A stretch of DNA of 25,836 nt from a virus: the IMG/VR virus record IMGVR_UViG_3300013014_000118, positions 1 through 25,836 of that record, one strand, 5' to 3'. The notes beneath the pieces are model-generated. The model had not been told where the DNA came from. It did no database searches and was given only the letters and a program-made list of their open reading frames with translations. The position numbers were made by a program, and so were the translations under genes. Positions 2-21,280 of this stretch are shown one piece after another; position 1 is the first letter of the stretch; the number at the start of each line of letters is the position of its first letter.

Positions 2-511
2 GGCGACCCAGCTTTTCGAATCCAATCCAGCGCGGGTAATTGTTATGTTGTGAATCGGGCTTCAACGTCTGCAATGGACTTGCTCAATGCGATGAATGGG
101 CCAATGACGTTTGGTACTAACAACACAGAACGTATGCGTATTGACGCTAGTGGAGTAGTTACTATTACCGGATCTATATCTGCTAGATATACCACAAAGT
201 CTATTGCAGCCGCTAGTGCAGCCTCAGTAACACCAGATGTTTCTGCTTATAATCAATACTCTTACACAGCACTTACTGCTGCTTTAACTATTAACGCACC
301 TATTGGAACACCTTTAGACGGTGATAGACTTACACTTAGAATTAAAGACGATGGTATAACAGCACAGACGCTTTCTTGGAATGCAATCTATAGAGTTATA
401 GGAACTGTACTTCCAACCTTAACCGTGTTGAGTAAACTGCTTTATGTTGGTTGTGTATACAATGCAGCAGATACTAAATGGGATGTAACTGCTGTTGCTA
501 GAGAGGCGTAA
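2..511 (+). CDS. Small tail-fibre-like virion protein, 5' end cut by window edge
   Basis: The reading frame is open to the left edge, so the true start lies outside the window. A GTG at 50 is in frame, but the codons before it look equally coding, so I do not treat it as the start. About 169 residues are visible. Near the N-terminal side is NTERMRIDASG, a motif family common in phage fibre proteins. The last ~90 residues (LTINAPIGTPLDGDRLTLRIKDDG through the LLYVGCVYNAADTKWDV segment) match the C-terminal domain of the protein at 4058-4648, which has LTIANPTGTPYDGQTLIYRIKDNG and VLYMMCIYNSVAAVW at the same spacing. The two are therefore paralogues in that domain. The stop at 509-511 is 3 bases before the giant gene, so the pair is probably co-transcribed. 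A role as an adhesin or fibre subunit is inferred from composition and neighbours; no enzymatic motif is seen. Confidence 0.7.
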   Translation, partial: GDPAFRIQSSAGNCYVVNRASTSAMDLLNAMNGPMTFGTNNTERMRIDASGVVTITGSISARYTTKSIAAASAASVTPDVSAYNQYSYTALTAALTINAPIGTPLDGDRLTLRIKDDGITAQTLSWNAIYRVIGTVLPTLTVLSKLLYVGCVYNAADTKWDVTAVAREA

Positions 512-514
512 TAA

Positions 515-3500
515 ATGGCTAATAGATATTGGGCCGGAGGAACAGGCACTTGGGACAATAGCGCAACTGCAAACTGGAGCTCTGCACTTCCACTAGCATT
601 AGCTACTACATCATGTTCAGGCACTACACTAACGACAACAGGTTCTCCCGCACTTGTTGTTGGGATGACTGTGCGATCATCTACTAACGTAAGTCTTGGA
701 ACAATTAGTAGCGGTTCTGCAAATACTTGGACTGTCACAATTGGCGGCACATATGCATCTCAAAGTATGACAGCAGCAACAATAGGTGCATCTGCTCCTA
801 CTTCAGTAGATAGTGTGTTCTTTGGAACTACATCCAGCGGTGCAGCTTATACAGTAACTATTGGCTTGACTGCTGTTGCACCTAACTGTTTAGATTTTAC
901 TGCAGTAGGTGCAACCGGTGGTACCGTTACATTCTCTTCAGCAGCAACAGCAGTTCTTAATGTATATGGTTCTTGGACTAGTGCTGCTACAGGTGTTGCA
1001 TTTTCAACAACAAATGGGGCTGTACTTAATTTTTTAGCAACTACTACTGGTAAAACGATTACTACTAATAATATTAGTCTTGGCACTATGGGAGTTTTCT
1101 TTAATGGTGTCGGAGGTGGTTGGACACTGGGAAGTGCTTTCACTGTAGCTACTAGTGGAACTACGATAACAGCAGGTTCGTTTAGTACAGGAAACTTTCA
1201 GTTTACTGGCTCAGGGTTTCTTAGTACTGGCACAGGTGTTAGGTCATTAACACTTGGAAGTTCAACAGTTAACTTGTCTGGCACAAACGTATTTAATTTT
1301 ACAATCGCAACTAATTTAACATTCGACGCCGGTACATCTACAGTTAATTGTAGTGGCGCAAGTCCTACATTTACAGGTGGAAGTTTCACTTTTAGAACAG
1401 TTAACTTGACAAGTACGGCAATTGCTAATGCAACAATATCAGGAGCACATACATTTACAACTCTTGCATTTACTAGTAAAGCTGCAGCTGGTCTTGGAAA
1501 TATCATATTTGGAGCAAATCAGACTATAACAGGCACGCTAACTTTAGGTACTGCAAACGCCGGCAATAATAGATTTTTTGTTCAAAGCGATATTATAGGG
1601 ACCCAAAGAACATTAACTGTAGCTACAATAGCAGCATTATCAGATATAGACTTTAGCGATATTGTTGCAGCAGGTGCATCTGCTGCTTCTCCTTGGACAG
1701 GTACTCGCTTGGGTAATTGTAAAAATAATAGCAATATCACTTTTACTACTGCTAAAACTGTATATTATTCATCTTCGGCAGGCGCAAGTGCTAGTTGGAC
1801 AGGAGCAGTGTGGGCAACTAGCTCAGGAGGTTCTGATTTTAGTATAAACAATTTTCCTTTAGCACAAGATACTATCATTATTGATAATGCAGGTGCAACA
1901 ACTGGCGATGGTTTAAGAACAGATGGTATTATAACACTTAGCGCCGGTTGGAATATAGGAACTTTTCTATCTACAAGAACAAGTGCGTATAGCTTAAGTC
2001 AAGGTAATAACGATCCTGTTGTGTATGGAGATTTTACTTTAAGCTCTGGAATAAGTTTTACAGTATTGACTAGCCCTACATGGACTTTTTCTGGGCAAGG
2101 TGTTACTCAGAATATAACCACAGCTGGTAAGACGATGACTTTTACTAATTTTATTGTCAATTCACCAGGCGGTACTGTTAAACTATTAGATTCATATACT
2201 AGTGCAGTACCATCAGGTGCAACATCTGCAAATTTTACTTTAACAGGCGGTACATTAGACTTAAATAATTTTATAATTACAGCTAATGCTTTTGGAAATA
2301 GTAACAGTAATACAAGAACACTTGCCTTTGGAACAACTGGAAAGATAGTGCTATTTGGTAATGGTGGTACTGTATATTCATCGGCAACTGATACTGGTTT
2401 ATCTGTAACAGGAACTTCACCATTAGTTCAATTTACTTATTCTGGAGGTACGGGTTCAAGAAATATTACTATGTCTGGATTAACAGAGTCTCAGTCCATT
2501 AGCGTTGAGTTTTTAAATAATGCTACCGATACTGTTGTTATTCAGGGAACTACTGGTGCATATAGAAATATTGATTTTACAAACTTTAATGGAACAATTA
2601 CAACAGCAAATAGTCCGCGTGTTTATGGCAACCTTACACTAGGAACTAACGTACAGACCAATGCGTTTGCTGGTACTAGTCTTAACTTTGCTTCAACATC
2701 AGGCACCAAGACAATCACTTCAAATGGAATAGCTTTTGATGTTACAATGGGATTTATTGGTGTTGGCGGCACTTGGCAACTTATAGGCAATTTAACCAAT
2801 GGTTCAACTCGCGTAACAACAGCAACTGCTGGTACAATAGATTTAAATAATAATACATTAACAACTGGAAACTGGTCTTCGTCTGGAACCAGCACTCGAG
2901 CAATTACATTTGGCACTGGTAAAATAGTCATAGCAAATACTTCAGGAACAATCTATAATATTGATGATGCCACTGGTTATACATACACGGGAACCGGTAG
3001 ATTTGATTTTCCCAATGGTGGTAGTGGCACGACTAGAAATATTTATCATGGAATAACTAACGGCACCGAGGCTAATTCACCAAACATTTATGTTACTGGA
3101 GGCTCGGATACTGTTGTTATTCAAGGTGCTGGAAGAAAATATAAAACAGTAGATTTTACAGGATTTTCTGGAATTCCACAATTTAATGGAACACAGTATC
3201 TTTATGGAAATTTAGTTCTTTCTGCAACAGGTTCGAATGTTCCAGCCGACAACAACATTCTATATTTTGCTGCAACATCTGGCACAAAAACTATTACTAG
3301 CAATGGTAAAACAATCGATATGCCAATAACATTTGATGGTGTTGGAGGAACTTGGCAACTTCAAGATGCTTTGACTATTGGGTCAACTCGTACAACAACT
3401 CTAACAAATGGAACATTAAACTTAAATGGAATGACTGCAACATTAGGATTAAACTTTAGTTCGACTGGTACTGGGACAAGAACATTAAGTTGGGCCAATG

Positions 3501-3997
3501 CTGGTTCTGCACTTTTTTTGGGTTCTTGGACTGTTAGCGGAACAAACTTTACCACAACTCTAAACGCAAGTGTCAGTCAAGGTGGAATACAGACATCGGG
3601 TTCAGGACCCTTTACTTTTGCTGGTGGTGGTTATAATTACCCATACCTTTATGCTGGTGGAACTACTACAGTTTCAGATAATAATCAGTTTAATGGATTT
3701 AGTATTACTGCAGGAGCAACACTAAAACTTCCTTCGAGTGGAACTACTACTATATTAAACAATGTAATATCACAAGGTGTAAGTGGTAACTTAAGTGTGC
3801 TTAACGCTAGTACATCAGGAACTCAAGCTACACTTGCACTATCAAATGGTTTACGAATATCTCAAGATTACATATCATTACAAGACATCGGCGTATCTAC
3901 AGTCAATAGTTTGTTCCACGCTAAACCAAATTCAATTATTGGAACAAATGTAACCGGAGTAACTACGACGCTTGGAGAATTCCTAAGCTTTTTCTAA
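515..3997 (+). CDS. Giant repeat-rich adhesin/fibre-like protein A (1160 aa)
   Basis: This is a 1160-residue protein, extremely rich in Gly, Ser, Thr, Asn and Ala, with short alternating beta-strand-like stretches. That suggests a beta-helix or beta-solenoid fibre. It begins MANRYWAGGTGTWDNS, a start motif shared with the gene at 4894 and, from memory, with many phage and bacterial surface proteins. Parts in order: the RYW...GTW module (1-25); an insert of about 68 residues absent from protein B (~27-94); a first solenoid block (~100-360); a central block with NFPLAQDTIIIDN near 446; three supermodules starting near 532, 729 and 922, each with a K-T-I/M-T motif, GVGGTWQL-like and TxxLN segments and TRTL; and a C-terminal block with LPSSGTTT shared with protein B. 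GAGG within the preceding gene (503-506) can serve as ribosome site. No signal peptide, membrane segment or enzyme motif is seen. A host-recognition or decoration role is inferred. Confidence 0.85.
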   Translation: MANRYWAGGTGTWDNSATANWSSALPLALATTSCSGTTLTTTGSPALVVGMTVRSSTNVSLGTISSGSANTWTVTIGGTYASQSMTAATIGASAPTSVDSVFFGTTSSGAAYTVTIGLTAVAPNCLDFTAVGATGGTVTFSSAATAVLNVYGSWTSAATGVAFSTTNGAVLNFLATTTGKTITTNNISLGTMGVFFNGVGGGWTLGSAFTVATSGTTITAGSFSTGNFQFTGSGFLSTGTGVRSLTLGSSTVNLSGTNVFNFTIATNLTFDAGTSTVNCSGASPTFTGGSFTFRTVNLTSTAIANATISGAHTFTTLAFTSKAAAGLGNIIFGANQTITGTLTLGTANAGNNRFFVQSDIIGTQRTLTVATIAALSDIDFSDIVAAGASAASPWTGTRLGNCKNNSNITFTTAKTVYYSSSAGASASWTGAVWATSSGGSDFSINNFPLAQDTIIIDNAGATTGDGLRTDGIITLSAGWNIGTFLSTRTSAYSLSQGNNDPVVYGDFTLSSGISFTVLTSPTWTFSGQGVTQNITTAGKTMTFTNFIVNSPGGTVKLLDSYTSAVPSGATSANFTLTGGTLDLNNFIITANAFGNSNSNTRTLAFGTTGKIVLFGNGGTVYSSATDTGLSVTGTSPLVQFTYSGGTGSRNITMSGLTESQSISVEFLNNATDTVVIQGTTGAYRNIDFTNFNGTITTANSPRVYGNLTLGTNVQTNAFAGTSLNFASTSGTKTITSNGIAFDVTMGFIGVGGTWQLIGNLTNGSTRVTTATAGTIDLNNNTLTTGNWSSSGTSTRAITFGTGKIVIANTSGTIYNIDDATGYTYTGTGRFDFPNGGSGTTRNIYHGITNGTEANSPNIYVTGGSDTVVIQGAGRKYKTVDFTGFSGIPQFNGTQYLYGNLVLSATGSNVPADNNILYFAATSGTKTITSNGKTIDMPITFDGVGGTWQLQDALTIGSTRTTTLTNGTLNLNGMTATLGLNFSSTGTGTRTLSWANAGSALFLGSWTVSGTNFTTTLNASVSQGGIQTSGSGPFTFAGGGYNYPYLYAGGTTTVSDNNQFNGFSITAGATLKLPSSGTTTILNNVISQGVSGNLSVLNASTSGTQATLALSNGLRISQDYISLQDIGVSTVNSLFHAKPNSIIGTNVTGVTTTLGEFLSFF
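2108..3495 (+). repeat. Three diverged ~195-residue supermodules in protein A
   Basis: Anchor segments recur at 2108 (QNITTAGKTMTF), 2699 (SGTKTITSNGIAFD) and 3278 (SGTKTITSNGKTID), that is at residues 532, 729 and 922. The spacing is 197 and 193 residues. Around each anchor the order is conserved: a DTVVIQG / YGNL segment before it in copies two and three, then GGTWQL-like, then G-T-L-N-L-N-like, then TRTL/TRAI. The repeat is visible in protein, while the DNA copies are diverged. A related anchor (TGKTITTNN, near residue 179) lies in the N-terminal block. The outer limits are approximate. Confidence 0.7.
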
Positions 3998-4012
3998 GTC
4001 AATACATTTCGA

Positions 4013-4020
4013 TATAAATA
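4013..4020 (+). promoter_or_regulatory. T4-type late promoter before second fibre cassette
   Basis: An exact TATAAATA lies in the 60-base gap between protein A and the next gene. With T4 late spacing (motif at -13 to -6) transcription would begin near 4026, giving a leader of about 32 bases that contains the strong ribosome site AGGAG before ATG 4058. This would give the second fibre cassette its own late transcript. Confidence 0.75.
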
Positions 4021-4057
4021 AACCATAGCCGAGTTCAAATTAAAAAGGAGAGCGAAG

Positions 4058-4648
4058 ATGGCATTAAAAATTTCAGGCACCACAGTCGTAAGTCACGGTG
4101 GTGGTGGTATAACTACTAACATTCAGCTTGGTGGTTCTTCACTTACAGGCAATACACTCGGAGCCAATAATACAGCTATTGGTTATTCATCTGGTACTGC
4201 TATAACATCGGGAAGTAATCTAACAGTAATTGGTGCATCTGCCGCAGCATCTTCTGCTACAGCAACCAATGAGATTACACTTGGCAACACGAGTGTTACC
4301 AGATTAAGACTACCAGGATTATCTAAAAACGTTGGTTCGCTGATATCTATCGCATCAATTGCGTCTATCGCAGTTAACTCTGATACAACTGATAGATATT
4401 TTATAACGGCACAGGCTGCTAATCTTACTATAGCAAATCCAACTGGTACTCCATATGATGGTCAGACTCTCATATATAGAATTAAAGATAACGGAACAGT
4501 GCGAACTATAACATTTGGTACTTCGTTTATTGGAGTCGGTGGCGCCATATTACCTGCTAATACTACTGCAAATAAAGTATTATATATGATGTGCATATAT
4601 AATAGTGTAGCTGCTGTTTGGCAGGTGCTTGGTGTAGTTCAAGAATAA
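4058..4648 (+). CDS. Small tail-fibre-like protein with YadA-head-like repeats
   Basis: A 196-residue protein. AAAAGGAG lies 7 bases before ATG 4058, downstream of a late promoter. Residues ~35-75 carry short repeats of the type NNTAIGYSSG / SNLTVIGASA, then NEITLGNTSVTRLRL. These resemble the left-handed beta-roll repeats of YadA-type adhesin heads and of many phage fibre proteins. In other phages the NEITLGN segment often precedes a self-cleaving S74 chaperone domain, but none is present here. Instead the last ~90 residues form the same domain as at the C-terminus of the gene ending at 511. This is probably a trimeric fibre or adhesin subunit, inferred from the repeat type. It sits directly before a 72-residue gene and giant protein B, mirroring the pair at 2-3997. 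Confidence 0.75.
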   Translation: MALKISGTTVVSHGGGGITTNIQLGGSSLTGNTLGANNTAIGYSSGTAITSGSNLTVIGASAAASSATATNEITLGNTSVTRLRLPGLSKNVGSLISIASIASIAVNSDTTDRYFITAQAANLTIANPTGTPYDGQTLIYRIKDNGTVRTITFGTSFIGVGGAILPANTTANKVLYMMCIYNSVAAVWQVLGVVQE

Positions 4649-4659
4649 TGGAGAATATA

Positions 4660-4878
4660 ATGCAAGACGTAATTAACACACTAGACAATGGATACATTCA
4701 GCATATTTTTGAGATTACTCAAGATGGTCACACATATCGTGATGCGATAGTAATGCCTCAAGAACAATATGATGAATTAAGCGCAGAAGAGATTGCTACT
4801 ATGAAGCAAGGTCGATTTGATAACTGGCTTGCGATTATTAACGCACCTCCAGTTGAAGAACAACCAATTGTAGAATAA
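4660..4878 (+). CDS. Small hypothetical protein (72 aa) inside the fibre cassette
   Basis: A 72-residue, mostly polar and acidic protein starting MQDVINTLDNGY, with FEITQDGHTYRDAIVM and a helical-looking LSAEEIATMKQGRFDNW segment before a Pro/Glu-rich tail. I chose ATG 4660 because GGAG (4650-4653) lies 6 bases upstream. An in-frame ATG at 4648, overlapping the previous stop, has no comparable site and would add four residues. I recall proteins of this look beside tail genes of marine T4-like phages but cannot assign a function. Size and position between two fibre genes would suit a small assembly chaperone or minor virion protein; this is inference. No counterpart exists in the first cassette, where the giant gene follows after 3 bases. 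Confidence 0.75.
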   Translation: MQDVINTLDNGYIQHIFEITQDGHTYRDAIVMPQEQYDELSAEEIATMKQGRFDNWLAIINAPPVEEQPIVE

Positions 4879-4893
4879 ACATAAGAAGATAAT

Positions 4894-7800
4894 ATGGCAG
4901 ATAGATATTGGGTCGGCGGCAGCGGTACGTGGAACGCTACATCTACAACAAACTGGTCTACCGCATCAGGGCAGGCTGGTGGCGCGTCTGTGCCAACTGC
5001 ATCTGATAATGTAATAATCGATGCTAATAGTGGATCGACTAAATCTCTTGTTATGAGTGGAGCAACTCTTACCTGTCTAAACTTTAGCATTACTACAACT
5101 GGCTGGTCATTAGCTAATAGTTCTACATACACTTTGACTGTTTCCGGTGATTTTTTTATAGCTTCTGGAAATTCTACATCTGGCACTGGCCTTGCATGTG
5201 ATATAATATTTGCGTCTTCATCAATACAAACTTTAACGACAAATGGAATTAGTTTTAATGCTCGCTTATATATCAATGGCATTGGTTCTGGAGGATTGCA
5301 ACTTGTAGGGTCACTTTTACAAGGAACTACTAGCGCAACAGCTGGTGTAACTTTAAATAGTGGTACATTTAATACTAATAATTACAATGTAACGACGTCA
5401 AGAACAATACTTAAAAGTCCAGGAACTGCAACTAGAAGTCTAATATTAGGCACTAGCACAATAACAGGTTATTACTCATGGGATTTGTCTAGTACTACTG
5501 GATTAACATTTAGTGGCGCAAGTTCCACTATTTATATTACTTCTGGAGACTTCTTAGGAGGTAGCCAAACATATGGAAATGTAACACTTGATCCTAAAGG
5601 CAGCCACATTGACATCACAGGAGCTAATACATTTAATAACCTTAATATCATAAGTAATAATTCAAGTTCTTCCACGGATTTGATTGTATTATACTCTAAC
5701 CAAGTTATCACCGGAACTCTAAGTTTTCCAAAGAGTACAGCTACCAGCGGCAATTATAGATATCAATTTAAGTCTAGCGTAAGAGGAGTTGCTCGAACTA
5801 TTACTGCTGCAGCAATTGATGCAACAACTCTATCGAATATAGATTTTCAAGATATAACTGCAGCTGGAGTTTCAGCCCCTTGGCCTGGAAGTAGTGGTAT
5901 TAATATTGGAGATGCCGGTGGAAACACAAATATAACGTTTAGAGCTGGAAGAACTGTTTTTTTTAATAATAGCACTACTGACGCCGATGGATTTGGTGGC
6001 GGTAGCAGTTCTCCTCATTGGGCACTTACTTCTGGAGGAACTCCAAGCGCTGCAAATTTTCCATTAGCACAAGACTCTATAGTTATAGATAACAACAGCG
6101 CCATGGGAATTCCGGAGAATGGAACTTGGACCAATATAGGTTGGCGTATCTATAATGGCGATTATTTTATAAATAACGTAACGTTTACAAAAACTGCAAC
6201 TTGGGAGATTGGATATTTTGGTAGTAATGGTTTATTTATTCTAGGAAATCTAAGTATTACCGGTGGAATGATTCAACATGGAACTGACCCTACAGAATTT
6301 AATTTCGATGGTACTGTTGCACAAACTATTTCAATTAATCCTACAACACCTTATTCTCCTGGTGAACTTATATTATATCTTCGTGGATTAGGATCTTATA
6401 ATATAGTTGCGAATACATCGATTGTAAATTCATACATTTATCATACTGGTGGAACGCTTGATGTTAGTTCTGGGTTAACGTGTTATTTCTTCAGTTCTAG
6501 CTCAAATCTTACTCGTACATTATCGTTCGGAACTACTGGAACAATTACAACTACAGTATCTTGGGCAAGTGTCAGTATAGATATTGGCACCACTAAAGGT
6601 TTGACTATTACTGGAACTTATTCGCAGAGTTCATTTTTATTTTTTAACGGTGGCACCCTTACATCATATGGTGGATTAAATTTTAATACTAGTAACTCAG
6701 ATTATACGACAATCGATGATTTTGCAGCATTATCTTTTGACTTAAACCTAAATACTAACACATATAATGCGTATGGTGGCCATTACAAAAATGTAACCAT
6801 TGGTGCCGATAAAAGAGCTTGGGGTAGTTTTCCATTAAAAATACTTGGAAATTTGACAATGGGGAGTGGTGCTCAGGCAACACAAGCGGGTAGTGCTTTA
6901 TATCTTAGGTCCAACTCTGCTAGAACTATAACAAATGGTGGTAATACTCATTTAGGTGCGTGGTACTTTGAAAGTGATGCAGGTTTAGGTTCGTGGACTA
7001 TGCAAGATGCATATATCAATAATAGTTCTAGCAGTTATAGCGGATCAGTAATTTTATCTGGCGGAACCATTAACCTAAATGGTTTCGCAATGACGATTAG
7101 AGATATCTCATCAACTGGCATTATAACTAGAAGCATTACAACAAACGTTGCTACAACAATATCACTTACAGGAACTCCGACTTCGCCATATGATGGTGTG
7201 TTACTTGATTTTAGCGATCCTACAAATTTAACTCTAAGTAGTAACATAACATTTAAACCATCTGCCACGATATCGTCTGGTGTTAGATCATTACTTTCAG
7301 GTGCTTTTGTAGAAGGTAATGCACCATCGATCTCATCAGCTGCTGGTACTGGAACTTATATCCTCCTTGGCGGAACAAATCCTGCATGGAATAATTTAAA
7401 CTTTACTGGGTATAGTGGAGCATTTACTTTAGCGGCTGATACTAAACTATATGGTAGTTTGACTATTCCAAGTGCTGCAGGAACTATGAATGGCACTTCA
7501 TATACACTAACTTTCAGTGGAACTTCAGGTACTAAGACTATAGCGTCTGGAGCTAACCTTATAGATATAGGCGCTCTGACATTTGATGGCGGTGCTACAT
7601 ATCAGTTATCTGCAGCATTGACATGCGGAACATTGTGTGGTGTTACGCTAACATTAGGTACATTAAATCTTAATGGATTTAATCTTACTTGCGAAACTAT
7701 TGCTAGTAGTAATAGCAATGTGCGCACGCTAGCATTTGGTACTACAGGATCTATTACATGCACTGATATTACTGGTACTACTGTCAATTTTAATACTTCT

Positions 7801-8838
7801 ACGAACTTAACTGTGACTGGTACTGCACCACTCATTACATTAAGCCAAACTGCTACGACAGTAGGTCGAACTGTTTACATGCCGGCCGTTGGAGAATCTT
7901 CCGCAATTAGTTTAACTATAACTGGTGGTTCTGATGCCATTACTATAAGAGGAACTTCCGGAGCATACAATAATTTAACATTCAGTAGTTTCACTGGATC
8001 TATGACTACTGCGAATAGTCCTATCATTTACGGCAACTTAACTATGCCAGCAACGATGACAACTGTTGCAAGTACAACTACTCTAACATTTGGAGCAACG
8101 TCTGGAACAAAGACAATATCGACTAATGGTATTACAATAGACTTTCCAGTAACATTAAGCGGAGTGAATGGCACATTTCAATTATCTAGCGCATTGACTC
8201 TTGAAAGTACTAGAACACTGACGCTAACTAGTGGAACATTTGATAGTAATAGTTTTGATGTAACAACAGGTTTATTTAGTTCTTCAAACTCAAATACACG
8301 ATCGATAGCTTTTGGTGCAAGTCAATGGACTATAACTGGAAGTGGAACTGCTTGGAATACTGCAACATCTACTCAGTTAAATACATCGTCAAATCAATAT
8401 ATTGCAACTATTAGTATGACATCTGCATCTGCTAAGACTTTTGCTGGTGGTGGTAGTTATTGGCCGATATTAGATCAAGGTGGTGTTGGAGTATTAACTA
8501 TCACTGGTAATAATAATTTTACTAAACTACAAAGAAGTATAAATGGTAATACTATAGCACTACCTTCTTCTGGTACTACTACAGTAGAAAGTTTCTCTCT
8601 AAGTGGAGTTAGCGGTAATCTTAATATATTAAAGTCTAGCACTGATGGTATACAAGCAACTTTAGCATATACTGGATCATCGCGCATATTTCAAGAATAT
8701 ATGAATATTAAAGATATAAACTTTACGCCAGCTACATATCTAACTATAAGCAATTCATTTAATTCTGGAAATAATTCTGGCATTGGCGGGTTTGCAGGAG
8801 GAAATAGTTCTTTATTGCTATTCTTTCAAAATTTATAA
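4894..8838 (+). CDS. Giant repeat-rich adhesin/fibre-like protein B (1314 aa)
   Basis: A 1314-residue paralogue of the protein at 515-3997. It starts MADRYWVGGSGTWN and has the same Gly/Ser/Thr/Asn-rich, beta-solenoid-like composition. Parts in order: the RYW...GTW...NWS module; a first solenoid block with an anchor near residue 111; the central block with NFPLAQDSIVIDN near residue 388; four supermodules starting near 476, 677, 878 and 1070; and a C-terminal block (FAGGGSYWP, LPSSGTTT, SGVSGNL) colinear with that of protein A. It lacks the ~68-residue N-terminal insert of protein A and has one more supermodule, which together account for most of the length difference. No catalytic motif, signal peptide or membrane span is seen. 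A fibre or adhesin role is likely but unproven. The stop overlaps the late promoter of the gp13 transcript. Confidence 0.85.
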   Translation: MADRYWVGGSGTWNATSTTNWSTASGQAGGASVPTASDNVIIDANSGSTKSLVMSGATLTCLNFSITTTGWSLANSSTYTLTVSGDFFIASGNSTSGTGLACDIIFASSSIQTLTTNGISFNARLYINGIGSGGLQLVGSLLQGTTSATAGVTLNSGTFNTNNYNVTTSRTILKSPGTATRSLILGTSTITGYYSWDLSSTTGLTFSGASSTIYITSGDFLGGSQTYGNVTLDPKGSHIDITGANTFNNLNIISNNSSSSTDLIVLYSNQVITGTLSFPKSTATSGNYRYQFKSSVRGVARTITAAAIDATTLSNIDFQDITAAGVSAPWPGSSGINIGDAGGNTNITFRAGRTVFFNNSTTDADGFGGGSSSPHWALTSGGTPSAANFPLAQDSIVIDNNSAMGIPENGTWTNIGWRIYNGDYFINNVTFTKTATWEIGYFGSNGLFILGNLSITGGMIQHGTDPTEFNFDGTVAQTISINPTTPYSPGELILYLRGLGSYNIVANTSIVNSYIYHTGGTLDVSSGLTCYFFSSSSNLTRTLSFGTTGTITTTVSWASVSIDIGTTKGLTITGTYSQSSFLFFNGGTLTSYGGLNFNTSNSDYTTIDDFAALSFDLNLNTNTYNAYGGHYKNVTIGADKRAWGSFPLKILGNLTMGSGAQATQAGSALYLRSNSARTITNGGNTHLGAWYFESDAGLGSWTMQDAYINNSSSSYSGSVILSGGTINLNGFAMTIRDISSTGIITRSITTNVATTISLTGTPTSPYDGVLLDFSDPTNLTLSSNITFKPSATISSGVRSLLSGAFVEGNAPSISSAAGTGTYILLGGTNPAWNNLNFTGYSGAFTLAADTKLYGSLTIPSAAGTMNGTSYTLTFSGTSGTKTIASGANLIDIGALTFDGGATYQLSAALTCGTLCGVTLTLGTLNLNGFNLTCETIASSNSNVRTLAFGTTGSITCTDITGTTVNFNTSTNLTVTGTAPLITLSQTATTVGRTVYMPAVGESSAISLTITGGSDAITIRGTSGAYNNLTFSSFTGSMTTANSPIIYGNLTMPATMTTVASTTTLTFGATSGTKTISTNGITIDFPVTLSGVNGTFQLSSALTLESTRTLTLTSGTFDSNSFDVTTGLFSSSNSNTRSIAFGASQWTITGSGTAWNTATSTQLNTSSNQYIATISMTSASAKTFAGGGSYWPILDQGGVGVLTITGNNNFTKLQRSINGNTIALPSSGTTTVESFSLSGVSGNLNILKSSTDGIQATLAYTGSSRIFQEYMNIKDINFTPATYLTISNSFNSGNNSGIGGFAGGNSSLLLFFQNL
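6319..8325 (+). repeat. Four diverged ~200-residue supermodules in protein B
   Basis: Anchor segments recur at 6319 (AQTISINPTT), 6922 (RTITNGGNTH), 7525 (SGTKTIASGANLID) and 8101 (SGTKTISTNGITID). These are residues 476, 677, 878 and 1070, so the spacing is 201, 201 and 192 residues. Each anchor is followed by a GGT/LGT/SGT-(L/I/F)-(N/D) segment and then TRTL, TRSI or VRTL. The same module occurs in protein A. The limits are approximate. Confidence 0.65.
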
Positions 8839-8841
8839 ATA
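8834..8841 (+). promoter_or_regulatory. T4-type late promoter for gp13-gp14-gp15-gp17
   Basis: An exact TATAAATA that contains the stop codon of giant protein B (TAA at 8836-8838). T4 spacing predicts a start near 8847, leaving a leader of only about 10 bases that begins at the AGGA ribosome site. No other late motif is seen until after gp17. Confidence 0.75.
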
Positions 8842-8856
8842 CAAAAAGGATTAAGC

Positions 8857-9597
8857 ATGGCCGTAACATCTAGAATAGAATTAATAGAATATTGTTTAAG
8901 AGCACTAGGTGAACCTGTTGTTGAAATCAATATTGATGAACAACAAGTTGAAGATCGTGTTGATGAAGCTATTGAATACTTTCGCCAATATCACTTTGAT
9001 GGTATTGAAAAAGTATACCTGAAGCATGCTATCACTCAGCAAAATATCACCGATAAGTATATCGTCGTGCCTGACTTAATCTATGGTATCACTAAAGTTT
9101 ATCCGATAGCATCTGGTACTTCAACCTCTAAGTCAATCTTTGACTTACAGTATCAACTTCGACTTAACGATCTCTATGATCTAACCAGTACGTCTGTGAT
9201 GTACTACACTCAGGTAATGAGCCATCTCGCATTACTAGACTTAACTCTTAATGGTCATCCACTTTATAGATTCAATCGTTTAAACAATAGACTCTACATC
9301 GATACAATGTGGCAAGAGAAGATGGAAGTTGGTAGTTATATTTTAGTGGAGTGTTATCGCGCGTTGGATCCTGCAGATGCTCCGCGCATGTACAACGAGA
9401 CTTGGATTAAGCACTATACGACTGCGTTAATCAAGAAACAATGGGCTGTTAATCTTAAGAAATTCTCTGGTCTGCAATTGCCCGGTGGAGTATCAGTTGA
9501 TGGTCCAGCATTGTATTCTGAAGCAGTATCAGAGATTAAAGAGCTTGAAGACGAGATAATGAATAAGTCCGCACCTCTTGATTTTTTCCTTGGTTAA
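8857..9597 (+). CDS. gp13: Neck protein gp13
   Basis: A 246-residue protein matching the T4 gp13 neck family, somewhat shorter than T4's 309 residues. The N-terminal pattern (IELIEYCLRALGEPVVEINID followed by a QVEDRVDEAIEYFRQYHFDG block) is typical of gp13 in T4-like phages of cyanobacteria and other aquatic hosts. The C-terminal half with NETWIKHYTTALIKKQW is also characteristic. Together with gp14 it closes the filled head and forms the collar that accepts the tail. The start is well supported by AGGA 6 bases upstream. It leads a run of four head-tail and packaging genes, with gp14 only 2 bases after its stop. Confidence 0.92.
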   Translation: MAVTSRIELIEYCLRALGEPVVEINIDEQQVEDRVDEAIEYFRQYHFDGIEKVYLKHAITQQNITDKYIVVPDLIYGITKVYPIASGTSTSKSIFDLQYQLRLNDLYDLTSTSVMYYTQVMSHLALLDLTLNGHPLYRFNRLNNRLYIDTMWQEKMEVGSYILVECYRALDPADAPRMYNETWIKHYTTALIKKQWAVNLKKFSGLQLPGGVSVDGPALYSEAVSEIKELEDEIMNKSAPLDFFLG

Positions 9598-9599
9598 TT

Positions 9600-10247
9600 A
9601 TGCCTAATGTATATTTTTCACATGGCACTAGAAACGAACAATATCTTCTTGAAGATTTGATCGTAGAGTCTATCTCTATCTGGGGACAACAATTCTACTA
9701 CATTCCTAGAACACTAGTTGCTAAGGACGAGATTCTCGGCGAAGACCGTCTGTCTAAATTTAAAGATGCATATCCAATTGATATGTACTTAGAATCAGTT
9801 GATGGATTTGAGGGACAAGGCGCTTTTATTCAAAAGTTTGGTTTGATGATGGAGCAGTCTGCAACGCTAACATGCGCTCGTCGTACTTGGGAACGAGTTG
9901 TTGGTAAACACGGAACAACTGTTCTACCTAATCGTCCATGCGAAGGCGATTTATTATATTTTCCACTGACTAAAGGTTTATTTGAAATTAAGTTTGTGGA
10001 TCATCAAGATCCATTTTATCAATTGAGAAAGCTATACGTCTATAAAATTCAAGTAGAACTATTCCAATATGCATCTGAGAAAATGGAAACTGGAATTCCT
10101 GATATTGACGTGTTTCAAACACTTAAGACATATGATACTACGTTGCAAACAAACATTGATGTAGTTGATTCATATGGTGACAACACTAAGTTTAAAAGTC
10201 AATCTATTCCGATAGTGTTTGACACAAATAATCCTTTTGGTGAATAA
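9600..10247 (+). CDS. gp14: Neck protein gp14
   Basis: A 215-residue protein of the T4 gp14 neck family (T4: 256 residues). Family features are the N-terminal FSHGTRNEQYLLEDLIVESI stretch, IWGQQFYYIPRTLV, and the GDLLYFPLTKGLFEIKFVDH segment, which is strongly conserved among T4-like phages. It acts with gp13 at the head-tail connector so that a completed tail can join the DNA-filled head. It starts 2 bases after the gp13 stop and is followed after 1 base by gp15. Such spacing suggests translational coupling. Confidence 0.92.
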   Translation: MPNVYFSHGTRNEQYLLEDLIVESISIWGQQFYYIPRTLVAKDEILGEDRLSKFKDAYPIDMYLESVDGFEGQGAFIQKFGLMMEQSATLTCARRTWERVVGKHGTTVLPNRPCEGDLLYFPLTKGLFEIKFVDHQDPFYQLRKLYVYKIQVELFQYASEKMETGIPDIDVFQTLKTYDTTLQTNIDVVDSYGDNTKFKSQSIPIVFDTNNPFGE

Positions 10248-10248
10248 C

Positions 10249-10980
10249 ATGCTAAACAATAATATTTTTTATCATGGTATAACACGCAAAGTAATTATTG
10301 CATTTGGAAGTCTATTCAGTAGTATTCGCATTGAACGTAAGAACAATGGAGTGACCGCTCAGACTCTTGCAATCCCAATATCATATGCACCGAAGGAAAA
10401 GTGGTTAGTTCGTATTGAGCAAGATCCAATGCTGGAGAATCACGTATATACAACATTGCCTAGACTATCATTTGAGATCACCAGTCTAACTTACGATGCA
10501 TCCCGCAAAACAAATAGAATGAATTACATTACTATTAATGATGCAACTAGTGCACATAATAAAATATACGCACCGGTACCATATAATATCGATATATCAC
10601 TATATGCTTTAACTAAAACTCAAGAAGATGGATTGCAAATCATTGAACAGATATTACCTTATTTTACTCCGGAATATACTCTATCATTAAAGCCTATTCC
10701 TAATAATGATATTATTATGGATGTTCCTATTATTCTTGAAAATATATCAGTGCAAGATGATTATGATGGTGATTTTCAAACCAGAAGATTTGTAACATAT
10801 ACAATTAACTTTACACTTAAATGTAATTTCTATGGACCTGTAACTGATGGTAAGATTATTAATAAGACTACAGTGTCTATAAACGATATAATAGATAGTA
10901 ACATAGATAATGCTATTAATACTGGAATTGGAAATGTTACAACTACTACTAGCACTGATAGTTGGACTGAAAATATATAA
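10249..10980 (+). CDS. gp15: Tail terminator / sheath stabiliser gp15
   Basis: A 243-residue protein (T4 gp15: 272). ATG 10249 follows the gp14 stop by one base, and GGTGA just upstream is a weak ribosome site. The frame remains open upstream to a TTG at 10219, but that would overlap gp14 and lacks support. N-terminal NNNIFYHGITRKVIIAFGSLFSSIRIER and the central APKEKWLVRIEQDP and LPRLSFEIT segments are family hallmarks. gp15 caps the tail tube and sheath and binds the neck. The C-terminus is Thr/Asn-rich (TTTTSTDSW). The next gene, three bases on, is the large terminase; the small terminase gene 16 that lies here in T4 is absent. Confidence 0.9.
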   Translation: MLNNNIFYHGITRKVIIAFGSLFSSIRIERKNNGVTAQTLAIPISYAPKEKWLVRIEQDPMLENHVYTTLPRLSFEITSLTYDASRKTNRMNYITINDATSAHNKIYAPVPYNIDISLYALTKTQEDGLQIIEQILPYFTPEYTLSLKPIPNNDIIMDVPIILENISVQDDYDGDFQTRRFVTYTINFTLKCNFYGPVTDGKIINKTTVSINDIIDSNIDNAINTGIGNVTTTTSTDSWTENI

Positions 10981-10983
10981 TAC

Positions 10984-12576
10984 ATGAGTGATAGTTTAAA
11001 ATCTTATAATTCTAATAGTGGTCTTAAAGCTGCTGGCCAAGTTATAGGTTTCACAAAAGAACAACTTGAAGAATATTTAAAGTGTGCTGAAGATCCTATC
11101 TATTTTATAAACAATTATTGTATGATTGTTTCACTTGATCAGGGTTTAATACCTTTCAAGTTATATCCATGTCAAGTAAATAAGATCAACGTCATCCACA
11201 ATAACCGTAAGGTTATTCTAATGGAAGGTCGTCAGCAAGGTAAGACCACATCATCTGCTGCTTACATTCTTTGGTACACAATATTTCAACCGAGTAAGAC
11301 AGTTGCTATTCTTGCTAATAAGGCAACTGCAGCTAGAGAAGTGTTGTATCGTTACCAATTAATGTATGAGAATCTTCCACTATGGATGCAGCAAGGTGTT
11401 ACAACTTGGAATAAAGGCGATATTGAATTAGAGAATTTATCAAAGGTATTCACCGCTGCAACATCAGCATCGGGTATTCGTGGTAAGTCTGTCAATATGT
11501 TGTATGTTGATGAAACCGCAATTATCCCAAACACAGTTGCAGAACAATTCTTTGCTTCAGTTTATCCAACAATTTCTGCCGGTGAAACTACTAAGATTCT
11601 TTTAAGTTCAACTCCTTTAGGATATAATCATTTCTGGAAATTTTGGAATGATGCTGAGAATGATCGTAATGGATTCGTTCCATTGTTTATTCCATACACA
11701 GAAATTCCAGGAAGAGATGCAGCATGGGCAAATGAACAACATAGACTACTCGGTGATATTAAATTTAATCAAGAAGTATTGTGTACTTTTCTTGGTTCGA
11801 GTTTAACACTAATTAATTCTAATACGATTTCTCAAATGTCTCCTGGATCTATAATATATAGTAAGGATGGATTTGATGTATATGAAAAGCCAATTGCTGA
11901 ACATGTATATACACTAACTGCAGATACTGCAAAAGGAGTTGGTGGTGACTATTCTGCATTTGTTGTAATTGATATGACAGAGTTACCATATAAACTAGTT
12001 GCAAAATACAGAGACAATAGAATTAGTCCTATGCTATATCCTGCTGTTATAAATAAAGTAGGCAGAGAATATAATACTGCGTATGTTCTAATAGAAATTA
12101 ATTCTTCAGAACAAGTTGCAGATATTTTATATAGTGAATACGAATATGATAATGTTGTAATGGTAAATAGAAGTGGTGATGGTCAGACAATATCGGGTGG
12201 TTTTGGTGGCGGTAAGACTCAATTAGGAGTTATCACCGATAAGAAAGTCAAACGTATTGGATGTTCAAACTTTAAATCATTAGTTGAGGAAAAACGATTG
12301 TTGATTCCTGATGCTGATGTTATATCTGAGATTTCTACCTTTATTCAAATAAAGAATAGTTATGAAGCAGATGAGGGTTATCATGATGATCTAGTAATGC
12401 CTTTAGTATTGTTTTCGTGGGCTACCACTAGTCAATATTTTAAAGACTTAAGTAATCACAATATTAGACAAGTGATGTATGAGAATCAAATGAAACAGAT
12501 CGAGATGGATTTAACTCCGTTTGGTTTCCTAGATGATGGACAGCGTACGGAAGATGGCCTTATGGCTAACTTCTAA
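10984..12576 (+). CDS. gp17: Large terminase subunit gp17 (packaging ATPase/nuclease)
   Basis: A 530-residue DNA-packaging motor protein (T4: 610). ATPase domain: Walker A GRQQGKTT at 82-89, Walker B LYVDE at 173-177 with the catalytic Glu, and coupling motif LSST at 207-210. Nuclease domain: D314 in LTADTAKG, E371 in LIEIN, and the HDD pair at 467-469. D314 to E371 is 57 residues, the same spacing as D401-E458 in T4. The protein translocates DNA into the prohead through the gp20 portal and cuts it at headful length. A small linker with SGGFGGGKTQ near 404-413 separates the second and third nuclease motifs. The frame is intact, with no intron or intein sign. Confidence 0.96.
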   Translation: MSDSLKSYNSNSGLKAAGQVIGFTKEQLEEYLKCAEDPIYFINNYCMIVSLDQGLIPFKLYPCQVNKINVIHNNRKVILMEGRQQGKTTSSAAYILWYTIFQPSKTVAILANKATAAREVLYRYQLMYENLPLWMQQGVTTWNKGDIELENLSKVFTAATSASGIRGKSVNMLYVDETAIIPNTVAEQFFASVYPTISAGETTKILLSSTPLGYNHFWKFWNDAENDRNGFVPLFIPYTEIPGRDAAWANEQHRLLGDIKFNQEVLCTFLGSSLTLINSNTISQMSPGSIIYSKDGFDVYEKPIAEHVYTLTADTAKGVGGDYSAFVVIDMTELPYKLVAKYRDNRISPMLYPAVINKVGREYNTAYVLIEINSSEQVADILYSEYEYDNVVMVNRSGDGQTISGGFGGGKTQLGVITDKKVKRIGCSNFKSLVEEKRLLIPDADVISEISTFIQIKNSYEADEGYHDDLVMPLVLFSWATTSQYFKDLSNHNIRQVMYENQMKQIEMDLTPFGFLDDGQRTEDGLMANF

Positions 12577-12587
12577 AATAGAGTATA

Positions 12588-12595
12588 TATAAATA
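12588..12595 (+). promoter_or_regulatory. T4-type late promoter for gp18
   Basis: An exact TATAAATA 12 bases after the gp17 stop. T4 spacing predicts a start at about 12601, giving a leader of about 44 bases before ATG 12645. Confidence 0.8.
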
Positions 12596-12600
12596 AAGAT

Positions 12601-12618
12601 AGACATCAACAGATGTTT
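12601..12618 (+). other. Stem-loop at predicted 5' end of gp18 mRNA
   Basis: Bases 12601-12607 (AGACATC) pair with 12612-12618 (GATGTTT), including one G-U pair, around the four-base loop AACA. The stem starts exactly where the late promoter predicts transcription to begin. A terminal 5' hairpin can protect mRNA from 5'-end-dependent decay, which would suit a highly expressed sheath gene. The stem is short and AU-rich, so its stability is uncertain. Confidence 0.45.
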
Positions 12619-12644
12619 CATTGCATAATAACAGGAGTTTAAAC

Positions 12645-15023
12645 ATGCCTTTTCAACTAAGCCCAGGAGTAGCCGTTGTAGAAAAAGATTTTTCTTCAAT
12701 CGTGCCAGCAGTATCTTCTTCGGCTGGAGCCTTCGCTGGACCATTTGCTTGGGGCCCAGTAGAAGATCCAGTTAGAGTTTCATCTGAAACCGATCTAGTA
12801 TCGCGTTTTGGAGCACCAACCGATGCAAACTATTCATCATTTTTCACAGCAGCTAATTTCTTAGCGTATACTAATAACCTTTTAGTTTCTAGAACAAACG
12901 CGCCAAATCTTAAAAATGCAGTAGAAACCATGTCTGGTACTGTTTTACAAGCAAATGTTGTTCTTACAAGCGCAGGTTCTGGATATGCTAGTAGTGATAC
13001 ACCTATTGTAACATTTAGTGCACCACAATTGGCCGGAGGCGTTAGAGCTACGGGTACTGTGAATTCTACTGTTGTTTCTACTGCTAGAACTATCACAGGT
13101 ATTACTGTTACAAACGCAGGTTCTGGTTATACAAGTGCTCCTACTATCACCATTAGTGCAGGTGCTACAGGAACTGCTGCTACAGCGCAAATAACAACAT
13201 TTCCACTTGTTGCTACAAAGATTAAAAATGCTACTGACTATATAAATTCATATTCTGCAAGCGTTAATTCTGGAATCTATGGTGCATTTGCTGCTAAATT
13301 TCCTGGATCTAGAGGAAACGGTCTCCGTGTAATAGTATTAGATGCTGGTAATTGGGCTTTAGCACCAGATACTGTTAAACAAGCATTTAATGGTGCTCCT
13401 GGAACTAGTGCATGGGCTGCACAGACTGGCAATCTAAATATCACTACTGCGAACGATGAACTTCATATCGCAGTATATGACGCAACTGGTACATTTAGTG
13501 GAACTCCTGGTACTATTTTAGAAAAATATTCTTTCTTATCTAAAATATCAGATGCAAAAAGAAGTGATGGTTCTAACAATTATTATAAGAGTGTAATTAA
13601 TTCACAGTCAAAATATATTTGGTTGCTAGCACATCCTAATACTTATTTGTCTGATCCACTAAGTAATGCTATTGTTACACTTGGTGCTACAGTATTCAGT
13701 CCTTATGTTGCTGCATCTGGTCAAACAGCTGCTGTTCCAGCTAAAATCACTACATCTGATACTACTCAATTTGCACAAATTGCTGCGTATAAAACTTTCT
13801 ATGATGCAGCTCCTGATAAGAGTGTACGTCAGATTAATGTAACTGGTACAAGTTCAAATAATAATGTATACACAGTAACCAGCATTACTCCAGTTTATAA
13901 TACTGCTACACCACCTGCTGTGACTAGTTATGTAATCGCAGTAACATCTACAGTAGTTGTTGCAGAAACAGCTGCTACTGCTAGCGTAGTATCTATTTCT
14001 AAACCTGGTTGGGGGTCGAGCACTATTGGAGTAAAAAATTCTCTTGGATCCGATGAACTAGGTGTGCTAGCGCGTCTATTTGATATTTCTCTAATCGGTG
14101 GTGTCGATGATTTTGATGCTGCAGATAGTGATGTACAAACTGCGTACTCTGTCTACGCAAATGCAGATCAATATGACATCTCACTAATTCCAGCTGGTAA
14201 CGTTTCACCTGCTACAGCGAAATATATCTTAGACAACGTTGTTGAAGGTTCTACCGGTGTCATCGGACGCAAAGATTGTGTATTGTTTATCTCTCCACGT
14301 AATGTAGATGGTACTCCTATCACATCAACAGGTTCAACTGCAACAGCAGCATTGATTGCTTATCATGATGCTACCAACATTAATAGTTCATATGCTGTAA
14401 TGGATTCTGGTTTTAAATATCAATATGATCGTTACAATGATTCATATCGTTATGTTCCATTAAATGGCGACATTGCTGGTCTATGCGCTCGCACTGATTA
14501 CTCTGCAGACCCTTGGTTCTCTCCAGGTGGTTTCAATCGTGGTCAAATTAAGAACGTAGTTAAACTAGCATTCAATCCAAGTCAAACAGATCGTGATGTA
14601 TTGTACTCAGCTGGTATTAATCCAGTTGTTACATTCCCAGGTCAAGGCACTATCCTTTATGGTGATAAGACTATGTTGACTAAGCCAAGTGCATTTGATC
14701 GTATCAATGTTCGTCGCTTGTTTATTGTTCTTGAAAAATCAATCGCTGTAGCTGCTAAGTTTCAGATGTTTGAATTCAATGATGGTTTTACTCGTGCACA
14801 GTTTAAGAATCTAGTTGAACCATTTCTAAGAGATGTACAAGGTCGCCGTGGTGTTACTGACTTCCGTGTTAAGTGCGATGAAGCTAATAATACTGGAGAA
14901 GTTATTGACCGTAACGAATTTGTTGCTGATATCTTTATCAAACCTAACCGTTCTATCAACTACATCACGCTAAACTTCATTGCAGCACGCTCTAGTGTAA
15001 GCTTCGAAGAAATTGGTGCCTAA
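12645..15023 (+). CDS. gp18: Tail sheath protein gp18
   Basis: A 792-residue contractile sheath subunit, clearly longer than T4 gp18 (659). ATG 12645 has AGGAG 7 bases upstream. The N-terminus (SPGVAVVEKDFSS, GAFAGPFAWGP) and the C-terminal third (YQYDRYNDSYRYVP, DIAGLCARTD, ILYGDKTM, FDRINVRRLF, VIDRNEFVA, RSINYITLNF) match the T4 family closely. The extra length lies in the variable outer part. Residues ~100-185 hold two similar units, each with AGSGY then a P-x-(I/V)-T segment. Residues ~365-463 hold a Thr/Val-rich beta segment. In T4 the corresponding N-terminal region is an outward protruding domain, so these are probably surface elaborations. The protein contracts on infection to drive the tube through the envelope. 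Confidence 0.96.
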   Translation: MPFQLSPGVAVVEKDFSSIVPAVSSSAGAFAGPFAWGPVEDPVRVSSETDLVSRFGAPTDANYSSFFTAANFLAYTNNLLVSRTNAPNLKNAVETMSGTVLQANVVLTSAGSGYASSDTPIVTFSAPQLAGGVRATGTVNSTVVSTARTITGITVTNAGSGYTSAPTITISAGATGTAATAQITTFPLVATKIKNATDYINSYSASVNSGIYGAFAAKFPGSRGNGLRVIVLDAGNWALAPDTVKQAFNGAPGTSAWAAQTGNLNITTANDELHIAVYDATGTFSGTPGTILEKYSFLSKISDAKRSDGSNNYYKSVINSQSKYIWLLAHPNTYLSDPLSNAIVTLGATVFSPYVAASGQTAAVPAKITTSDTTQFAQIAAYKTFYDAAPDKSVRQINVTGTSSNNNVYTVTSITPVYNTATPPAVTSYVIAVTSTVVVAETAATASVVSISKPGWGSSTIGVKNSLGSDELGVLARLFDISLIGGVDDFDAADSDVQTAYSVYANADQYDISLIPAGNVSPATAKYILDNVVEGSTGVIGRKDCVLFISPRNVDGTPITSTGSTATAALIAYHDATNINSSYAVMDSGFKYQYDRYNDSYRYVPLNGDIAGLCARTDYSADPWFSPGGFNRGQIKNVVKLAFNPSQTDRDVLYSAGINPVVTFPGQGTILYGDKTMLTKPSAFDRINVRRLFIVLEKSIAVAAKFQMFEFNDGFTRAQFKNLVEPFLRDVQGRRGVTDFRVKCDEANNTGEVIDRNEFVADIFIKPNRSINYITLNFIAARSSVSFEEIGA

Positions 15024-20758: not shown

Positions 20759-21280
20759 ATGGCTACACAAATTCCAGAAAACATTAACCCATTATCACCT
20801 AATGGATACTTGTTTTCGCTTCAAAGATTATCAACATTGAGTTACTTTTGTCAAGAAGTTTCTATACCGGCTATCACTCTTCCTGAAGCTATGCAAGTAA
20901 CTCCATTTTCTAGAGTACCATTATCTGGTGATCAGATTGACTTCGAACCTCTTAGAATACAGTTCTTAATTGACTCTAAGATGGAAAACTATAAAGCAAT
21001 TCACAATTGGATTATAGGATTAGGATTTCCAGAAGATTATGCACAATATACTACTACCATTGGAGGTGCAGTACCAGCATCTTTAAGTGAAGTAGCACAA
21101 TCCTCTTCAGATGCTACATTAGTTATATTAGGTAATGACAATAACATCATTCAAACTATTCAATTTGCAGATTGTATTCCGCAAAGTTTAGAGAGCATAA
21201 CGTTTACATCCACGAGTCAAGATGTGACATATTTAATTGGAAGCGCAAACTTTTCTTATTCTTATTATAAATTCGTTTAA
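20759..21280 (+). CDS. Tail-tube-like structural protein (gp3-position protein)
   Basis: A 173-residue protein with the layout of a T4-type tube protein: NGYLFSLQRLSTLSYFCQEVSIPAITL, then VTPFSRVPLSGDQIDFEPLRIQFLIDSKMENYKAIHNWIIGLG. Compare gp19 here (FLCKSAQLPGSTI, YRGRAVNIAGERTFAPW, YNDTDFAIRNSMEQW). The shared Cys...(L/I)P pattern, the extended strand with Phe-x-Pro-(W/L), and the helix ending in W point to a gp19-like fold. In T4-like cyanophages a protein at this place between gp23 and uvsY is, to my memory, often labelled gp3 (tail completion). It could equally be a tube-cap or initiator protein. It is the first gene of a late transcript that continues to uvsY-uvsW. The next in-frame Met is at residue 44 or so, so ATG 20759 is the likely start despite having no leader. 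Confidence 0.75.
   Translation: MATQIPENINPLSPNGYLFSLQRLSTLSYFCQEVSIPAITLPEAMQVTPFSRVPLSGDQIDFEPLRIQFLIDSKMENYKAIHNWIIGLGFPEDYAQYTTTIGGAVPASLSEVAQSSSDATLVILGNDNNIIQTIQFADCIPQSLESITFTSTSQDVTYLIGSANFSYSYYKFV

Follow-up and report, generated by a model that had tools for sequence, protein, structure and literature searches.

Paired fibre and adhesin genes linked to an aromatic C-terminal tail: a candidate modular host-recognition cassette present twice in a T4-like phage fragment

How receptor-binding proteins can be swapped between phages while tail assembly stays intact is a long-standing question. Among the closest described systems are the branched tailspikes of the Ackermannviridae, where the TSP4-type complex of CBA120 provides a modular and exchangeable scaffold for further receptor-binding proteins (PMC8825819). 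The role of the XD1 domain in T4 gp10 and TSP4 is unclear, perhaps that of a spacer, and it is not described as a docking surface (PMC8825819). In the long tail fibre of T-even phages, the gene for the adhesin gp38, which sits on gp37, lies directly downstream of the fibre gene. In phage Pam3, the adjacent genes gp24 and gp25 encode a fibre and its chaperone, with the second required for the first (PMC9608196).

The window, meaning the whole stretch of 25,836 bases analyzed here, is a fragment of a T4-like phage. Two cassettes of a fibre gene (S) and a giant gene (G) stand in tandem immediately upstream of T4-type neck genes. Downstream of the neck genes, and in T4 order, follow the large terminase, sheath, tube, portal, prohead, and major capsid genes. 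The major capsid protein is 60-63% identical to those of Pelagibacter phage Mosig, Methylophilales phage Melnitz, and cyanophages. In T4, genes 9, 10, 11, 12, and wac precede gene 13. The slot upstream of gp13 varies among related contigs and holds assorted fibre and lectin-like genes. Three of these contigs (L023, L027, L030) encode LamG/concanavalin-like proteins in place of the S-G cassette; these have a common C-terminus, QNFxAxRxRxGI, perhaps a second shared C-terminal tag. The features of the window are as follows:

2..511, + strand: S1, 3' part of a fibre gene whose 5' side is cut by the contig end
224-508, + strand: S domain of S1, its last ~95 residues
515..3997, + strand: G1, predicted beta-solenoid protein of 1160 aa with a RYW N-terminus (AF2 model, beta-helix matches)
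3971..3994, + strand: aromatic C-terminal tail of G1, LGEFLSFF, with low confidence and a loose structure when G1 is modelled as a monomer
4013..4020, + strand: late promoter-like site TATAAATA, ahead of S2
4058..4648, + strand: S2, fibre protein of 196 aa, with YadA/Hep-Hag-like repeats and then the S domain (4334-4645)
4660..4878, + strand: X, acidic protein of 72 aa (pI 4.1), with its own start at 4660 between S2 and G2
4894..8838, + strand: G2, RYW protein of 1314 aa (open reading frame, similarity to G1)
8809..8835, + strand: aromatic C-terminal tail of G2, SLLLFFQNL, diverged (from sequence)
8834..8841, + strand: late promoter-like site TATAAATA, ahead of the gp13 homologue and closing the S2-X-G2 unit
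8857-9597, + strand: gp13 neck homologue, setting of the cassettes
9600-10247, + strand: gp14 neck homologue, setting of the cassettes

An earlier note on this DNA had described the four S and G reading frames as they stand here but overlooked the X gene and the aromatic tails. Most of the resemblance that it saw between the cassettes is borne out. The S proteins share the proposed C-terminal domain of ~90 residues, with 42% identity across the final 86 residues (E 4e-18) and an alignment score of 190, where shuffled sequences reached at most 60. The giants have the claimed similarity beyond composition, at 36% identity over 565 residues (E 1.6e-59; score 1207 against 346 for shuffles), and also a common 24-residue RYW N-terminus. 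A repeat supermodule of ~195 residues is recovered as a best self-match at an offset of 200 residues in both G1 and G2, and the DNA is as strongly diverged as stated, with almost no similarity left. Two points need amendment. The NFPLAQD block is present in both giants, but it is near-invariant among 26 family members and hence marks the family rather than the pair. Likewise, the order of the genes holds for both cassettes, but the term "small" is unproven for S1, since the contig end cuts its 5' side and S proteins at other loci are 120-1194 aa long, with a median of 400.

The S domain forms the C-terminal end of the protein in 176/176 cases. An alignment of S extended to its distant members contained no stretch suitable as a scan query. 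No Pfam family matches S above threshold. PHROG 3030 profiles match the C-terminal part only of S1 (4.6e-19), S2 (2e-13), and the S protein of the close relative L028 (5.8e-14). The N-terminal regions of S proteins are long and of fibre type, with matches to tail fibre and tailspike PHROGs.

The S2-X-G2 genes are preceded by TATAAATA at 4013 and followed by another copy at 8834 before gp13, the arrangement expected with T4-type late promoters, so they look like a late transcription unit. The window has nine such sites, eight of them on the + (coding) strand, with 3.8 expected. From these motifs, T4-type late promoters seem to be in use across the window. Further sites at 12588, 15052, and 20746 lie just upstream of the sheath gene, the tube gene, and the gene at 20759.

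Structure prediction relates both proteins to known phage components. In the monomer model of S2, residues 93-196 form an all-beta domain (pLDDT 95-98) and the remainder is disordered. PDB matches with Z from 8.6 to 5.8 comprise the Pa223 capsid spike, KP1 gp10, T4 gp10, CBA120 TSP4 residues 79-180, and T4 gp9, with a tailspike depolymerase, CpaA, and StcE within the same range; a gap to Z 3.6 follows. Comparison of the S domain with gp9, gp10, the KP1 gp10-like chain, and TSP4 79-180 gave VIA Z scores of 5.8-8.0 over 89-97 residues. Its matches include 6o38 and 4dny, also listed by DALI for XD1, and the CBA120 paper lists gp9, gp10, CpaA, and StcE for XD1 (PMC8825819). The S domain is thus predicted to fold like the XD1 domain of T4 gp9/gp10 and CBA120 TSP4, at the level of fold only given the middling Z scores. 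An assignment of S as an XD2-type docking domain was rejected, as the matched TSP4 stretch (79-180) is XD1. A phmmer search of PDB chains with S2 and G2 returned nothing significant.

The AF2 model of G1 (mean pLDDT 85) is almost all beta and forms a beta-solenoid. Autotransporters, tailspikes, and lyases match it with VIA Z scores of 10-15.5, chiefly within residues 1-411 and 823-1150; Foldseek E values were not significant. As modeled, G1 is a parallel beta-solenoid like the right-handed beta-helix adhesins and tailspikes. Its last seven residues have a pLDDT of <50, which fits a peptide in need of a partner.

Relatives were searched with G1, G2, the G N-terminus, X, and S as queries. S-X-G proved to be a recurrent unit in other contigs: the 140 distinct RYW proteins of the first pass have S and X upstream in 46 cases, S in 15, and X in 32, with X partly undercalled. 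The proposal of a fibre/adhesin pair beside the neck genes is upheld by the adjacency of S and G in dozens of phage contigs and in cultured phages; the finding named in the earlier note as evidence against it, that the small and giant genes are never neighbours, is the opposite of what is seen. The close relative L028, with a gp13 87% identical, has a single S-X-G cassette at the same position, and another contig (L017) has a single S-G cassette. The cassette is not tied to T4-like phages, since S followed by G, adjoining a host-specificity protein, is also found in the Methylophilaceae siphophage P19250A. Carriage of S by prophages looks rare, as a scan of genome contigs gave a single locus, in a Micavibrio MAG, where the next gene ends SSMFLAM.

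Two of the contigs contain giants of separate interest. In L009 (836-16696), S and X are followed by one reading frame of 5286 aa that starts with RYW and ends GKFFNFFFFD, among the largest phage adhesin candidates met in this analysis. In Limnohabitans phage DC31 (L018; PQ492658), an unannotated RYW giant directly after X (9001-13119) runs off the record end; the annotation as deposited instead gives two small CDS in antisense there.

The informative part of G at these loci is its last residues. Where S stands upstream, G proteins terminate in an aromatic tail with the consensus GNF[FL]x[FM]F, and those without S end otherwise. At viral loci selected by S, the strict tail is carried by the next complete reading frame (150 aa or longer) in all 46 of 46 distinct cases, compared with 0/220 of the other reading frames of the same loci; some of the data were already known when the strict pattern was defined, and many of these loci are related, some being near-copies. 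A looser rule, fixed before the S-selected loci were seen, was positive for 42/42 RYW neighbours. At loci selected by G, the tail is present in 17/22 cases with S upstream versus 2/27 without (Fisher p 6e-7), and the cases of S without tail are mostly near misses such as GGNFLMLL. A set of 96 RYW proteins comprises 45 with S and tail, eight with S only, three with tail only, and 40 with neither. Across the tree of these proteins, built from their N-terminal 260 residues, S and the tail switch jointly: an independent-pairs test gave nine supported pairs, with 7.7 in the same direction and 0.0 in the opposite (median p 0.008). Variants of S and of the tail do not co-vary significantly (partial Mantel r 0.12, p 0.09). 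There is one counterexample (L346), where a distant S-like gene is followed by a 292-aa reading frame lacking the tail, and two loci (L231, L243) have a tail and no detected S. Neither the aromatic tail nor the RYW motif was found described in the open-access literature searched. A different recurrent C-terminus, (L/I)RSFTERxRx, occurs on RYW proteins without S in seven contigs (L102, L110, L124, L126, L127, L157, L192) and is possibly a different docking tag.

The tail is also found on bodies unrelated to the RYW proteins. When IMG/VR was scanned for DNA encoding GNFFxMF followed by a stop, in-frame ends were found on RYW solenoids, Gly-rich adhesins, a LamG-like protein, and others. Among the complete proteins selected in this way, S is upstream in 16/20. 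Seven distinct non-RYW tail proteins have S; six of these lack X and one has it at a distance. The rarity of X on non-RYW proteins, together with the 16/20, associates S with the tail and X with RYW. The X family is found immediately upstream of RYW proteins, and in the window X is present in cassette 2 and missing between S1 and G1. X was rejected as the partner of the tail, for no link between them was detected at the G-selected loci or in the tree-controlled test of the 96 RYW proteins.

Cultured phages follow the same order. The G protein of P19250A, directly after S, ends NTGNFFFMF. In Tsukamurella phage TPA4 (orf28-orf29) and mycobacteriophage Melville of the Melville/Charlie group (gp20-gp21), S is followed by proteins ending NGTFFAFF and AGNFFAFF, respectively; the Melville-type S is common to about 26 records. 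Bixzunaviruses have a variant tail, GNFFPLIxA, after S. The S and tail-protein genes overlap or abut in TPA4, in Melville and its relatives, and in Bixzunaviruses. Melville (L343 3551-8279) and LilSpotty (L347 1569-6297) are identical over 4729 bp from a point within the S gene onwards, which in sequence has the character of a recent recombination at the adhesin locus. As a natural swap the comparison is uninformative, since the identical 4729 bp reach well past the pair.

On this basis, we consider it fairly probable that these loci are modular host-recognition cassettes in which an adhesin is docked on a fibre end by a portable C-terminal plug, and that the window has two copies in a variable slot upstream of the neck genes. 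The linkage of S with the tail is shown; the physical docking of the tail on S, the location in the virion, receptor binding, and the role of X are what we infer from the patterns above. The lack of matching between S and tail variants, the tail-less neighbour in L346, the tails of L231 and L243, and the spacer role suggested for XD1 speak against this reading. S would be a fibre protein anchored to the phage tail by its variable N-terminal part, with the conserved XD1-like domain at its end. G would be a long beta-solenoid adhesin, probably monomeric, with a hydrophobic/aromatic plug (GNF[FL]x[FM]F-COOH) made up of its last ~8 residues. This plug would dock on the S domain that terminates the fibre, such that any plug-bearing protein could be mounted. 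X, small and acidic, may serve as a helper or cap for RYW solenoids specifically. With two cassettes in tandem, two adhesins would be mounted, and two putative host specificities are a possibility. The broader proposal, that this terminus is a general docking tag for unrelated adhesins on XD1-like fibre ends in phages of Proteobacteria and Actinobacteria, with plug-and-socket exchange of receptor-binding proteins, stands in our judgement at about even chances.

The linkage of S and tail might have other origins. S, or its C-terminal domain, could be a folding partner that binds the hydrophobic tail during assembly only, similar to how gp25 of Pam3 embraces gp24 at its distal part. The operon order is the same, the S-tail linkage is tight, and small fibre chaperones are often encoded beside their fibre (PMC9608196). 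This is nonetheless unlikely given the fibre-type N-terminal regions of S, which reach 1194 aa (median 400) and match tail fibre and tailspike PHROGs; X would be the better chaperone candidate, yet it tracks RYW and not the tail. Distinctly less plausible is that the tail makes contact with the surface or membrane of the host, for instance by mimicking the outer-membrane protein C-terminal signal, with S merely a fibre that is usually co-inherited. The tail, being short, hydrophobic, and mostly F-ending, is loosely like that signature, but such contact leaves unexplained why the tail is lost without S in nine independent comparisons, and the tail also occurs in phages of hosts with another type of outer envelope, namely mycobacteriophages and the Tsukamurella phage. 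Common descent of the locus alone, with no functional tie, is disfavoured as highly improbable: many loci do come from related phages and the sample is partly near-copies, but the association survives the independent-pairs test and the tail is on unrelated bodies in phages of both Actinobacteria and Proteobacteria.

The earlier note regarded the two cassettes as duplicated, while also allowing for two related acquisitions. Duplication fits G poorly and is still compatible with S. The careful 20-row G tree marginally rejects a forced clade of G1 and G2 (AU p 0.040). For S, a forced clade of S1 and S2 is not rejected (AU p 0.124). S1 groups with the S protein (support 100/92) and G1 with the G protein (100/99) of L064, another T4-like contig, which encodes a gp13 homologue and has its own S-X-G cassette; this shared nearest kin favours exchange of whole cassettes. 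Two acquisitions fit the trees better than one tandem duplication. A tandem duplication in this lineage, with fast divergence of G2 and S2 thereafter, is a doubtful alternative: S2 and G2 have long branches, a clade of S1 and S2 is not rejected, and a quick 78-row G tree did not reject G1 and G2 (p 0.987), although its free tree was under-optimised and it was left out of the history inference. Against duplication are the kinship with L064, the rejection in the 20-row tree, and the presence of X in cassette 2 only.

If plug docking is true, the C-terminal tag would predict the genes of tip adhesins and of their fibre, and host-recognition proteins of uncultured phages could be identified from sequence only. 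It would also provide a first working role for PHROG 3030, the RYW solenoids, and X; for the window copies of the latter two there is no matching Pfam or PHROG entry (no family covers G1 or G2, with nothing above threshold).

The described systems resemble the cassette in different respects. PHROG 3030, the C-terminal part of which the S domain resembles, has no assigned function. gp38 shares the position of an adhesin gene directly downstream of a fibre gene and is a separate tip protein on the fibre end, and some of the tail-bearing proteins here are Gly-rich. However, the Gly-rich domain of gp38 differs from G1 and G2, which are predicted beta-solenoids with no Gly-rich Pfam match; a sub-threshold Gly_rich_2 match was seen only for the P19250A G protein. 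To our knowledge, gp38 is not attached via a C-terminal aromatic peptide. The Pam3 pair is alike in its adjacent genes, but gp25 acts as a chaperone and has a helical trimerisation domain, a description that S and G do not share (PMC9608196). The likeness to CBA120 TSP4-N, which has XD domains in common with T4 gp9/gp10, lies in an XD1-like tail protein as putative scaffold. XD1 is internal in gp9, gp10, and TSP4, followed by XD2/XD3 or a fibre-binding domain, whereas the S domain is C-terminal throughout. The CBA120 partners dock by N-terminal head/XD2 regions onto XD2/XD3, while the partner here would be linked by a C-terminal peptide.
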